Source: Candidatus Melainabacteria bacterium (lineage in GTDB: Bacteria; Cyanobacteriota; Vampirovibrionia; Obscuribacterales; Obscuribacteraceae). From it: a stretch of DNA of 64,000 bases. A program made the position numbers and the translations under genes. Under the pieces are notes generated by a model. The model did no database searches. It saw only the letters and a list, made by a program, of their open reading frames with translations, and had not been told where the DNA came from. Positions 12,921 to 49,964 of this stretch are shown here, in pieces. Each line of letters starts with the position of its first letter. The first letter of the stretch is position 1. The stretch is from the NCBI GenBank assembly GCA_003963305.1, contig RXJR01000009.1:124001-188000 (forward strand). Direction: 5' to 3'.

Positions 12921-13241
12921 TTGATACAAGAAGTGACAGACAGTGAAAAGTCCAAAATTTCAATAAACTATTGGCTCGTGCCGATCATTGGCATTTTAGT
13001 TTTTCTTGTTTCGGGAGTTGGTTTCGGCTGGTTCATTCTTCTTCAGATGCAGGCACACGGATTGCATCAGGGTGACTATTTTCGCTTTGGTCACTTTCAG
13101 CTTTATCTTTTGGGTGCAGGCGGAGGAATATTTGCCATTGCCATAATCGCAATATCTGCAATATTGGCTGCTGTTACAACTATGCTTACTATTAGTTGGG
13201 GACCTAAAATTTTCTCGATTCTAAAAAGCAAGCGGAAGTGA
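12921..13241 (+). CDS. small two-helix membrane protein
   Basis: 106 residues. The TTG at 12921 follows an AAGGTG at a short distance; a GTG four codons later is an alternative. Two membrane helices (about 19-42 and 65-92) with short charged ends and a glycine-rich second helix. No recognised domain. It follows promoter copy 1, and its leader shares CAAAAGGTG-CGCT with the leader of the gene at 14982, so the two are probably co-regulated. Confidence 0.5.
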   Translation: MIQEVTDSEKSKISINYWLVPIIGILVFLVSGVGFGWFILLQMQAHGLHQGDYFRFGHFQLYLLGAGGGIFAIAIIAISAILAAVTTMLTISWGPKIFSILKSKRK

Positions 13242-13330
13242 GACACCCCATCGCCAATCGTACTCATGGAACCACGTCAAACACTCTAGAGCGTCTGACA
13301 AAGTGGCGCTGAACCGTTACCAGTCGGTAA

Positions 13331-13540
13331 AAAACACAGCAAGAGACAGTCCTAAACTCTGCTCTTCTGACTGCTTCACAGCCCGGCGACCTTACTGCGT
13401 TACTCAACCATAGGATCGACGCCCCCGCTCTAGTCCAACTTTTAACAGGACTGAAACCCGCTGAACGCTATCCAAGGGCGTTCTTACTGTTGAGATAAAG
13501 CAACTAGAACGAGAAGGCGTTTATTCACGAGGGATGATGA
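13331..13540 (+). pseudogene. decayed winged-helix-like fragment
   Basis: One frame (13331-13498) reads ETVLNSALLTASQPGDLTALL and on to TGLKPAERYPRAFLL. After a shift near 13490 the next frame continues TVEIKQLEREGVYSRG. The order short helix, TGL turn, helix, L-x-LE-x-x-G and a basic end resembles the C-terminal winged helix of DprA-like or similar DNA-binding proteins. No start codon or ribosome binding site. I take it as a frameshifted remnant; the family assignment is weak. Confidence 0.3.
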
Positions 13541-13717
13541 GCTTTTCGAGCATGCAATGGATGAACTCAACATACATAATCCGCTTTTCGAGAAGTCCGT
13601 CCATGAGCACTGCTGCGAAGAAACGAGAAACGACAAAGCTGATGAGAGATCTGCGCAAATTGCATCCTACTAATCGACGAGAATAGAACGTCCAGCACAA
13701 TTGGAAGCCCGGTAAAG

Positions 13718-13746
13718 ATGACGCAAGGGTACTCTGGCACTATAAT
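13718..13746 (+). promoter_or_regulatory. promoter module, copy 2
   Basis: ATGACG (13718-13723), 17-nt spacer ending TCTGGCAC, perfect -10 TATAAT (13741-13746). Nearly identical in layout to copies at 12849 and 14792. It drives the mini-PspA gene. Confidence 0.7.
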
Positions 13747-13809
13747 GAAGGAACAGTCAGCTGTGAATGTCAGCCGAGCGCCGTGACGCAGATAATCTTT
13801 GTCGATAGA

Positions 13810-13986
13810 ATGCCTATTCCAGAAGACTCAAAAATACAGATAATAAAACGGCAAATTGAAGCTTGGAAAAATAGAGCTGCGATGGCTCGACAGCAAGGAT
13901 GCGACGATTTGGAAAAACAAGCCCTGGACCATAAAAGAGAGTACGAAAACGAACTGGCAAAACTTCAAGAGTTTGAACTTGAGTGA
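13810..13986 (+). CDS. mini-PspA: isolated PspA/Vipp1 helical segment
   Basis: 58 residues from the ATG at 13810. A GTG at 13783 is possible, but the MPI start lies in a block shared with the gene at 14982, including AGAATGCCTATT and ACTCAAAAAT. Residues about 16-50 match residues 68-97 of the full PspA at 49209-49964: W, NRAAMA, QQG, DDL, KQAL and Y are identical, about 19 of 30 positions. In PspA/Vipp1 this is the conserved part of the long coiled-coil hairpin. The amphipathic helix that binds membranes and the rest of the hairpin are absent. It could join or poison PspA rods; that is inference. Confidence 0.7.
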   Translation: MPIPEDSKIQIIKRQIEAWKNRAAMARQQGCDDLEKQALDHKREYENELAKLQEFELE

Positions 13987-14055
13987 CATGCACTCAGACT
14001 AAGAGAATGATGACAAAGAACATACAAGGTTATGAAACTGTCGGGAATGTGAACC

Positions 14056-14247
14056 ATGGAAGAAGACAACGACGAAGAAGCACTTAAAATACAAACTGGT
14101 GAACTGTTGAAATGGCTTGTGATACGTCGTTCATCACCTGGCGAAGGACCTGAACTACGCGCTTCTCCTGTGCCAAAACGTCCGTCACCTGACAGTGGTA
14201 CAAATGCTGCAAATCTAAACAGTCCTGGGGCGGAAGACGAAATATAA
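14056..14247 (+). CDS. possible small acidic protein
   Basis: 63 residues, acidic at the N-terminus (EEDNDEEALK), then a short helix (GELLKWLVIRR) and a serine/proline-rich disordered tail. A GGGA lies about 10 nt before the ATG. It lies between the mini-PspA gene and the FtsH-like membrane protein on the same strand. Could be genuine; no family recognised. Confidence 0.35.
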   Translation: MEEDNDEEALKIQTGELLKWLVIRRSSPGEGPELRASPVPKRPSPDSGTNAANLNSPGAEDEI

Positions 14248-14262
14248 GCAAGCAGGCTTATA
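14243..14262 (+). promoter_or_regulatory. 7-bp palindrome upstream of the 14310 gene
   Basis: TATAAGC and GCTTATA around a 6-nt spacer, overlapping the stop of the preceding small gene. It is AT-rich, without a T-tract, so an operator or an mRNA hairpin is more likely than a terminator. Confidence 0.4.
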
Positions 14263-14309
14263 AGCACGGCAGGCACGTTAGAGAAACAAATTAAGGAGCA
14301 CAGAATAGC

Positions 14310-14768
14310 GTGGTGCGTGAAAAAAGACTAGCACCAGTCCTGTGTCTCATTGCGGCAGTAGTGCTTTGCTGTGAGTGGCTTGCTGACGAGACGCATCGTT
14401 GTCCAGAATTTGCCTACAGTCAGTTTCAGAACATGCTGAGGGCAGACACTATTGATCAGAACCTCGTCACTGTGGTGCTCCCTCCCTATACGAATAGTTT
14501 CGGTCGCGATTATGTGCGCTTGTGGATAAAGGGAGATCCTCTATGCCACTTCATGTTTATTCCGACAGACTTTTTAAATCATGACGGACCAGCTCTGAAA
14601 AAAACGCGCGCATATAGAATTCAGAGTTGTGGCAATTGTGAGATCATCGGAATCGGGTTGAAGATATTTTTTGAGATAGTAATCGCTGGGTGTATCCTTC
14701 TGGCATTTCGCTCAAAGCTGTCGAATGAAACAGAACATCGGCAATCGACTCAGGAAGAGACCGCTTAG
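14310..14768 (+). CDS. membrane protein resembling the FtsH periplasmic region
   Basis: 152 residues from a GTG with AAGGAG 11 nt upstream. Two membrane helices (about 8-24 and 117-137) flank an extracytoplasmic domain. That domain begins CPEFAYSQFQNMLRADTIDQN, close to the pattern at the start of the FtsH extracellular domain (YSEFL...V..G.V..V), and the two-helix layout equals the N-terminus of FtsH. No AAA or protease part follows; a short Gln/Glu tail ends the protein. FtsH homology is inference from pattern and topology only. Confidence 0.5.
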   Translation: MVREKRLAPVLCLIAAVVLCCEWLADETHRCPEFAYSQFQNMLRADTIDQNLVTVVLPPYTNSFGRDYVRLWIKGDPLCHFMFIPTDFLNHDGPALKKTRAYRIQSCGNCEIIGIGLKIFFEIVIAGCILLAFRSKLSNETEHRQSTQEETA

Positions 14769-14791
14769 CAGAATCGCGAAGTTCGGGAAAA

Positions 14792-14820
14792 ATGAAGCAT
14801 TGACGCTGTGGCGCTATACT
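14792..14820 (+). promoter_or_regulatory. promoter module, copy 3
   Basis: ATGAAG (14792-14797), 17-nt spacer ending TGTGGCGC, -10 TATACT (14815-14820). Third copy of the module at 12849 and 13718. A further TCTAGC-CAAAAGGTG-CGCT block is shared with the leader of copy 1. Confidence 0.65.
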
Positions 14821-14981
14821 AAAGAAAAGGTCGTTACGCATGTCTAGCATCAAAAGGTGTCGCTCAATAGAGCAGTTTTAGCTTGAAGAGTCTGAGGCTA
14901 GACAGAAAAGCAATTTGGCAATGGTCATCGTCATATTGTTTGGTCAATTCAATCAAAGGCTTCAGACACTCGGACACAAGA

Positions 14982-15287
14982 ATGCCTATTTCCAACGATA
15001 CTCAAAAATCGGTAGTTCAAAACTCTTGGTTCGCAGGACACCACCATCCGTGGCTGAGCTCTGCAATTGGACTGTACTTGGCTGGCGTATTTTCGTTTGG
15101 CACAGACCTGTATTTGTTCTGGCTAAACAGACCGGATGACCTCGACAGAGGTCCGCATTTTATAGATGACTTCACTTTCACGATAATGGTCGAAGCGCTG
15201 GGCGGCTGCATCGTGTACGTGCTAATCGCAGTTCTGCAATGTCTATTTGATTTTTTGCGCTGCGTCTTCTACAAGTCTGAAACATAA
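14982..15287 (+). CDS. small two-helix membrane protein
   Basis: 101 residues from the ATG at 14982; the start block (AGAATGCCTATT) is shared with the mini-PspA gene. Two membrane helices (about 26-46 and 68-92), with an acidic loop (NRPDDLDRGPHFIDD) between them. An upstream in-frame start at 14883 would add 33 residues with no homology support. The leader from promoter copy 3 is long, about 160 nt. Family not recognised. Confidence 0.5.
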   Translation: MPISNDTQKSVVQNSWFAGHHHPWLSSAIGLYLAGVFSFGTDLYLFWLNRPDDLDRGPHFIDDFTFTIMVEALGGCIVYVLIAVLQCLFDFLRCVFYKSET

Positions 15288-15409
15288 ACAAAATGCGCGG
15301 GACAGGGCTAAGTGAATCAGAAACCTCCAGGAGCCTACGTATTGGACGAATTCGCCTGCTGGCGAACTTAATGTACTGTTACTAATTAAAAGCTCTCTTG
15401 CTGCACACG

Positions 15410-49208: not shown

Positions 49209-49964
49209 CTAAACTTCGTCTTCTTCTTTCACATATTTCGCGTCAACTGTGATGTCTCCATCACCTTTGGTTTCGATTAGAACCGGCTCTTTAACGCTGA
49301 TTTTGTTGTCTGCCTTGCCCATAGATTGCTTCAAGGCGAGCAGTTCCATCTCGACGTCTGACTTTCCTTCAAAGTTCTTGAATTGTTTATCCAGACTGTC
49401 AGTGCTCAGCTCAGCCAGGGCAGCAGCTTTGGCTTCGCGCTCCTGGACTTTTGTTTCCATCTTTTCAATAACTGACATGGCGCCTGAGGAGGTCGTTTTG
49501 GACAAGATCTCATTGGCTTTCGAAGTGGCTTGAGCTGCCTTGTCACGAGCAATAAGAACTTGTTTCTTGGTGTAAGCCTTCTGCACTTCAGCTTCGAGGT
49601 CGGTCAGTCTCTGACGCAGCGTCACTGTCGACTCTCTCTGCGACTTGAGCTGTGTTTCCAGGTCAGTGGCAGCCTGCACATACTGTTGACGGCGTTGTAG
49701 CGCTTGTTTGGCCAGGTCGTCGTTGCCCTGCTGAACCGCCATTGCGGCGCGATTTTGCCAGGTTTCAGCCTGGTCTTTATTCTTCTGAAGTTGCTGCTCG
49801 AGCTGCTTTTCGGTGGCAATTGCCTGAGCCACTGCCTGCCTCACCTGAATCAAATTGGATTGCAAATCCTGATAGGTTTGCTCCAGCATGATCTGGGGGT
49901 CTTCCATCTTTCCCAAAATCGCGTTGAACATAGCCCTGAACAAGTTACCGAGGCGTTCGAACAT
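49209..49964 (-). CDS. pspA: phage-shock protein A / Vipp1 family
   Basis: 251 residues, AAGGAG 9 nt before the ATG. An ESCRT-III-related protein that coats and repairs membranes. Amphipathic helix alpha-0/1 begins MFERLGNLFRAMFNAIL, followed by DPQIMLEQ (the PspA start signature) and a long coiled-coil hairpin with WQNRAAMAVQQGNDDLAKQAL at 69-89. A charged tail (EPVLIETKGDGDITVDAKYVKEEDE) ends the protein, as in PspA rather than the longer plant/cyanobacterial Vipp1 tail. A fragment of this protein is encoded separately at 13810. Confidence 0.92.
   Translation of the reverse strand: MFERLGNLFRAMFNAILGKMEDPQIMLEQTYQDLQSNLIQVRQAVAQAIATEKQLEQQLQKNKDQAETWQNRAAMAVQQGNDDLAKQALQRRQQYVQAATDLETQLKSQRESTVTLRQRLTDLEAEVQKAYTKKQVLIARDKAAQATSKANEILSKTTSSGAMSVIEKMETKVQEREAKAAALAELSTDSLDKQFKNFEGKSDVEMELLALKQSMGKADNKISVKEPVLIETKGDGDITVDAKYVKEEDEV

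Follow-up and report, generated by a model that had tools for sequence, protein, structure and literature searches.

A stand-alone hairpin tip of PspA in Candidatus Melainabacteria and its possible bearing on a bacterial ESCRT-III polymer

Candidatus Melainabacteria are non-photosynthetic relatives of cyanobacteria. The 64,000-nucleotide stretch of one such genome analysed here (the window) encodes both a full-length PspA, a membrane-repair protein that forms polymers, and, on the opposite strand and not adjacent to pspA, a 58-codon open reading frame that resembles a short internal part of it (Table 1). The locus raises the question of whether part of an ESCRT-III-like polymer protein can be kept as a gene of its own and, if so, what such a piece could do. 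We refer to the product as mini-PspA.

A conserved gene homologous to the PspA hairpin tip

The mini-PspA frame runs from an ATG at 13810 to a stop codon at 13984-13986; the GTG at 13783 is probably unused, since relatives begin at the equivalent of 13810. BLASTP aligned residues 13-45 of mini-PspA with residues 63-95 of the window's PspA at 21/33 identities and 46 bits (E 2e-12, a single-comparison value), a register in which position i of mini-PspA corresponds to position i+50 of PspA. The Smith-Waterman score of the pair was 112, against a mean of 32 (sd 5.2) and a maximum of 63 for 5000 shuffled versions of mini-PspA, so composition does not explain the likeness. When the whole genome of the organism (7.48 Mb, 44 contigs) was searched, PspA was the best match of mini-PspA other than itself (E 3.5e-8). 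A reading made from the letters alone had called the frame a stand-alone 58-residue slice of PspA, and the open frame, the identity and the shuffles bear this out. The agreement with the conserved hairpin stretch, which that sequence-only reading had put at about 19 of 30 positions, holds at 21 of 33; residue 68 of PspA, where it had begun the stretch matched by residues 16-50, pairs in this register with residue 18.

Table 1. Coordinates of the features discussed (window positions unless a locus or contig is named)
Feature	Position	Strand	Basis or remark
mini-PspA, 58 aa, stand-alone hairpin tip (PspA residues 51-108)	13810..13986	+	Turn at G30; BLASTP, NCBIfam, ortholog, AlphaFold2
Optional 9-codon extension of mini-PspA from upstream GTG 13783	13783..13809	+	ORF list, relatives' starts
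Sigma-70-like promoter match 5' of the mini-PspA ORF, 10/12 consensus positions	13718..13746	+	Consensus match only
63-aa neighbour ORF; C-terminus resembles the Pro-rich tail of five other mini-PspA	14056..14247	+	Tail profile E 0.007
Full-length PspA, 251 aa, presumed partner of mini-PspA, carries α5	49209..49964	-	PF04012 E 1.3e-47; solved homologues
Clp_N-hairpin fusions	L008:1033-1647 (own contig C9 about 92200-92840), L012, L049, L085, L097		

Profile searches gave a graded picture. The NCBIfam PspA model TIGR02977 matched the GTG-start reading of mini-PspA at E 4.2e-5; its equivalog cut-off of 242.95 bits lies above the scores of both mini-PspA (23.4 bits) and the window's full PspA (125.2 bits). 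With PF04012, the search that the sequence-only reading had proposed, the window gene was not reported at E<=1, while three of its stand-alone siblings and a Clp_N fusion were (E 0.0009-0.0021), in corresponding positions and, for the siblings, at 18-19 bits, below the Pfam gathering score of 33.9 bits. Mini-PspA carries the hairpin-tip pattern of PspA/IM30 (W..RA..A......L...AL). It begins at the equivalent of PspA residue 51, without the membrane helix α0, and ends at the equivalent of residue 108, without α5, so that the membrane-binding helix and both ends are indeed missing, as had been claimed. An α5-like C-terminus was considered and rejected: the ELAKLQEF end slightly recalls α5C, yet it scored 18 against a mean of 17.1 and a 95th percentile of 23 for shuffles. 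By sequence, then, the 58-codon ORF and the hairpin tip of the window's PspA (49209) are homologous, which supports describing mini-PspA as a detached part of an ESCRT-III-like polymer protein; because it lacks α0 and α5 and scores below the family cut-offs, it does not classify as a member of PspA proper.

AlphaFold2, given 28 alignment rows, predicted two helices for mini-PspA (residues 5-29 and 32-57) with a mean pLDDT of 85, rising to 92-95 in the core blocks, and nearly the same result came from five minis alone, with no PspA rows (helices 8-29 and 32-57). The prediction is thus a helix-turn-helix of high model confidence. The top Foldseek matches of the model were hairpin tips of Vipp1, Snf7 and PspA at about 1 Å rmsd, with E-values of at least 0.3, as may be expected of a short hairpin. 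VIA placed the model on E. coli PspA 51-110 (Z 9.5) and on Synechocystis PspA 52-110 (Z 8.7); Z-scores of this size are also obtained with unrelated hairpins, and the fold alone therefore proves nothing.

Two other species of the genus, G001 and G002, were available for comparison. The G002 ortholog has 59 residues, with an extra Met, and is 69% identical to mini-PspA, its last seven residues (LQEFELE) being unchanged; the two genes are 79% identical in DNA, with a dN/dS of 0.25. When the changes between them were placed at random, the frame was broken in 2930 of 4000 trials, and an equally low pN/pS arose in only 4 of the 1070 others. The mini-PspA gene is real and is conserved in G002 under purifying selection. 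No mini-PspA was found in G001 (87% complete), where only PspA-type frames were seen. On frame loss in close relatives, one of the two outcomes that the sequence-only reading had said would refute it, the congeners are divided: the frame is kept in one and was not found in the other.

Around the two loci, nothing is conserved between the organism and G002 beyond TPR proteins. The mini-PspA gene is surrounded by small ORFs without Pfam matches. For the neighbouring ORF at 14056-14247 Pfam likewise gave no match, and a link between it and the tailed minis described below is uncertain on this sequence resemblance. An RNA element at the locus was rejected, Rfam having no match in 13000-15300. We also observed a recurring gene head, made up of a leader like GACRCTCGGACACAANRATG and a start like M(P/T)IP(E/D/N)xSKIQ, that is common, in part, to the mini-PspA genes of the organism and of G002. 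It also occurs on the window ORF at 14985-15287 (head at 14967-15015), on an ORF of contig C11 of the same genome (L010:1480-1536) and on a 189-aa ORF adjoining the G002 mini (head sites on the minus strand of L011, about 1640-1720 and 880-960); the proteins that bear it are otherwise unrelated to each other.

Free and fused tips in the family

A nine-row profile was run against all 50 available genomes of the family, and short-frame matches were inspected. Matches, mostly to full PspA, were found in 49 of the 50 genomes. Stand-alone hairpin proteins numbered 11, in eight genomes of five genera (G000, G002, G003, G062 and G066 with one each; G033, G067 and G070 with two each), a count that leaves out G069:C1, G035:C418 and G025:C36 as well as G034:C260, which was inspected, and that includes L048 despite its weak match (E 0.015 with the nine-row profile A2; 8e-5 with a wider profile). 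All eight mini-bearing genomes also encode a full-length PspA, a co-occurrence that says little because 49/50 genomes match, most of them with full PspA; minis are absent from most PspA-bearing genomes of the family. Six minis are 58-66 residues long and carry near their end LQEF or LNEF (five) or LQDF (one), and this LQEF-like C-terminus recurs in several genera where PspA has no such motif at that place. Five minis bear a Pro-rich tail, RVPKxPxPxSGAGxxAxPLP. The same kind of tail, without a recognisable hairpin, was seen on an ORF adjoining a mini in G067 (L089:2369-2752), and the tailed member L089 has a basic, hydrophobic N-terminal stretch. A tree of the 58-column module was poorly resolved, with the minis in two clusters (local support 0.76-0.83), and this sequence-based tree does not show whether they had a single or a multiple origin.

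The tip also occurs fused to other domains. Five Clp_N fusions, one in each of five genomes (L008 of the organism itself, G033, G014, G063 and a 1292-aa protein of G027), carry it at the C-terminus or internally; Pfam confirmed Clp_N in 4/4 of those tested, and the G063 protein is so labelled from its 67% identity to the G014 protein. In two further proteins, of G005 (L044:1796-2281) and G027 (L045:3433-3909), the tip is N-terminal to a conserved domain with several cysteines, for which Pfam had no significant match. Two others, L094:2328-3410 (G065) and L095:2539-3639 (G028), place a PspA-like hairpin behind an unusual N-terminal domain that looks SRPBCC-like by eye.

To look further afield, we ran a ten-mini profile against a sample of 292 genomes of the phylum; 128 gave matches, and among the matches listed, to about E 7e-6, no open frame shorter than 185 residues occurred except 13810-13986. 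With another mini as query, a search of 53 genomes of the order returned no short frame from outside this family. A species-wide scan with two short peptide patterns, which distant minis may escape, returned 37 loci, including four minis that all belong to the family set; the others that were aligned were PspA-like. Most named matches belonged to Candidatus Melainabacteria/Obscuribacterales or Cyanobacteria MAGs, and a few titles were vague or discordant ('bacterium', 'Actinobacteria', 'Proteobacteria'). A mobile-element origin was rejected: viral contigs gave no confirmed match, plasmids and phages none, and PHROGs nothing significant. The literature that we searched held no description of hairpin-only PspA proteins. 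Tandem repeats and fusions, NlpC/P60 and PspAA among them, account for <2% of homologues in a broad survey of PspA architectures (PMC11237479), and a word search of its main text found no mention of Clp/ClpN, of Melainabacteria or of truncated, short, partial, fragment or small-protein forms. As far as these searches reach, free hairpin-tip PspA proteins appear to be new.

Retention of the α5-docking residues

In published PspA/Vipp1 structures, and likewise in ESCRT-III polymers, one subunit's hairpin tip is the docking site for α5 of another, and polymer formation depends on α5 (PMC8281802; see also PMC11919738); Vipp1 without α5 is reported not to polymerize (PMC8281802). For Synechocystis PspA, fixed contacts between the tip and α5 are described for W71, K74, R88 and L91 with F196 and M212, and fixed lateral contacts for R44, K55, L125, K128, L138 and R142 (PMC11746142). 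W19, R22, K36 and L39 of mini-PspA map to the four tip residues (the residues at these offsets were checked; the +2 offset for Synechocystis PspA is inferred from W, K/R, R/K and L being spaced alike), and L34 maps to L86 of the Nostoc protein, for which a cross-link to L193 of α5 is reported. Of the lateral contacts only K55 coincides with the slice, at its very start (position 3).

We compared the fate of these positions in 24 non-PspA hairpins, allowing conservative changes, over the 27 columns in which 47 full PspA rows show at least 90% conservation. Of 34 rows outside the ordinary PspA set, these 24 remained after leaving out L091 and L092, which nearly duplicate L090, three second-type PspA and the PspA-like long proteins L051, L066, L094, L095 and L102. 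Retention was 100% for W19, 96% for R22, 100% for L34 and 83% for L39 (mean 95%), against an average of 43% for the other 23 columns, and only 6 of 17550 column sets equalled these four in a column permutation that ignores the relatedness of the rows. The fifth docking residue, K36 (R88 in PspA), was retained in 29% of the hairpins. The core positions A26 and A38 were kept as well as the docking residues, and hairpin packing may therefore explain part of the signal. By these alignments the slice is the α5-docking tip of PspA, with docking residues among the best kept, which gives a sharper form to the sequence-only reading's idea that a free piece could cap or poison rods.

Possible roles of a free docking tip

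What the gene product does may be considered against three kinds of known protein. To PspA/Vipp1 (IM30, PF04012, bacterial ESCRT-III) mini-PspA is alike in tip sequence and predicted fold, and it has counterparts of the docking residues W71, K74, L86 and L91; it differs in comprising about 58 of 250 residues, in lacking α0, α4, α5 and most lateral contacts, and in scoring below the family cut-offs. The laboratory fragments PspA 1-144 (4WHE) and IM30 α1-3 include the same tip, but they are constructs more than twice as long, whereas mini-PspA is a natural gene for the tip only. The third is DM14 of Lgd/CC2D1A/CC2D1B, eukaryotic ESCRT-III regulators, a short helical hairpin like the mini-PspA model, on which it superposes (TM 0.91 on the query for 6ei6 in Foldseek; Z 7.3 for 5vny in VIA), though such a match in shape is common to many unrelated hairpins. 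The DM14 hairpins of CC2D1/Lgd are reported to bind to ESCRT-III subunits to the exclusion of polymer contacts and to inhibit polymerization in vitro, with Lgd overall a positive regulator (PMC6286407, PMC11275157). DM14 is repeated four times in tandem alongside a C2 domain, and through a KARRxxR motif it engages a negatively charged surface of Shrub (PMC11275157). Mini-PspA has one hairpin without KARRxxR, tandem repeats or C2, and would bind α5, unlike DM14; we found no evidence of common descent between them. The likeness would be in role, as both would occupy an ESCRT-III polymer contact.

We tentatively favour, at a little short of even confidence, a reading in which mini-PspA would be a regulator of PspA that offers the docking tip to α5 and cannot propagate the lattice. 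The distal hairpin tip (the end of α1, the turn and the start of α2) would be made as an independent protein that keeps the docking surface and lacks α0, most lateral hairpin-hairpin contacts and α5. With the docking surface kept and the other parts gone, mini-PspA could accept α5 without passing the lattice on; by occupying α5 of free or rod-end subunits, it would buffer monomers or cap rods. We infer that mini-PspA is expressed, that it binds α5 and that it affects the polymer.

The main rival, a general two-helix interaction module, descended from PspA but turned to new partners such as Clp adaptors or its own dimer and with no role at the PspA polymer, seems somewhat unlikely to us. It would account for the fusions to Clp_N and to the Cys-containing domain, the Pro-rich tails, the distance of the sequences from PspA save at a few positions and the absence of linkage to pspA. 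However, W19, R22, L34 and L39 are kept, and a new partner would not be expected to require precisely these residues, unless they serve hairpin stability. We consider it improbable that the tip binds lipid, marking or shielding membranes without engaging PspA. Isolated IM30 α1-3 is reported to bind negatively charged membranes in vitro and to lie at the cytoplasmic membrane in vivo (PMC12636044), but the net charge of the six short minis is negative (-2 to -4, one -17), unlike a binder of anionic lipid, and minis have no amphipathic α0. A functionless leftover of a decayed pspA copy could be suspected from the setting among small ORFs without Pfam matches, the patchy distribution and the duplication of part of the mini-PspA start elsewhere in the genome; it is largely refuted, and very improbable, given the intact frame under purifying selection in G002 and the similar lengths and LQEF-like C-terminus, absent there from PspA, shared by other genera. 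Chance similarity of coiled coils, for which the silence of PF04012 on mini-PspA and the weak Foldseek E-values speak, is refuted by the shuffle test, the genome-wide E-value and the siblings' PF04012 matches in the same positions.

Reading the tip as an α5-docking regulator points to a single interface and a few residues, and to a simple polymerization assay. Domain-fused tips would recruit PspA to Clp_N-type partners or link it with them, and to judge by the Clp_N fusions the tip may serve as a modular means of contacting PspA, perhaps from the side of proteolysis. More broadly, and as a possibility to which we give somewhat less credence than to the favoured reading, free tips might regulate bacterial ESCRT-III in trans through α5, with the Clp_N-borne tip as a PspA-recruiting adaptor, a bacterial counterpart by analogy of DM14/CC2D1. 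A natural 58-residue docking site would offer a handle on how bacterial ESCRT-III polymers start, are capped and disassemble, matters that in our assessment are largely open; if the reading is true, the family would have made a regulator of polymerization out of a slice of the polymer.
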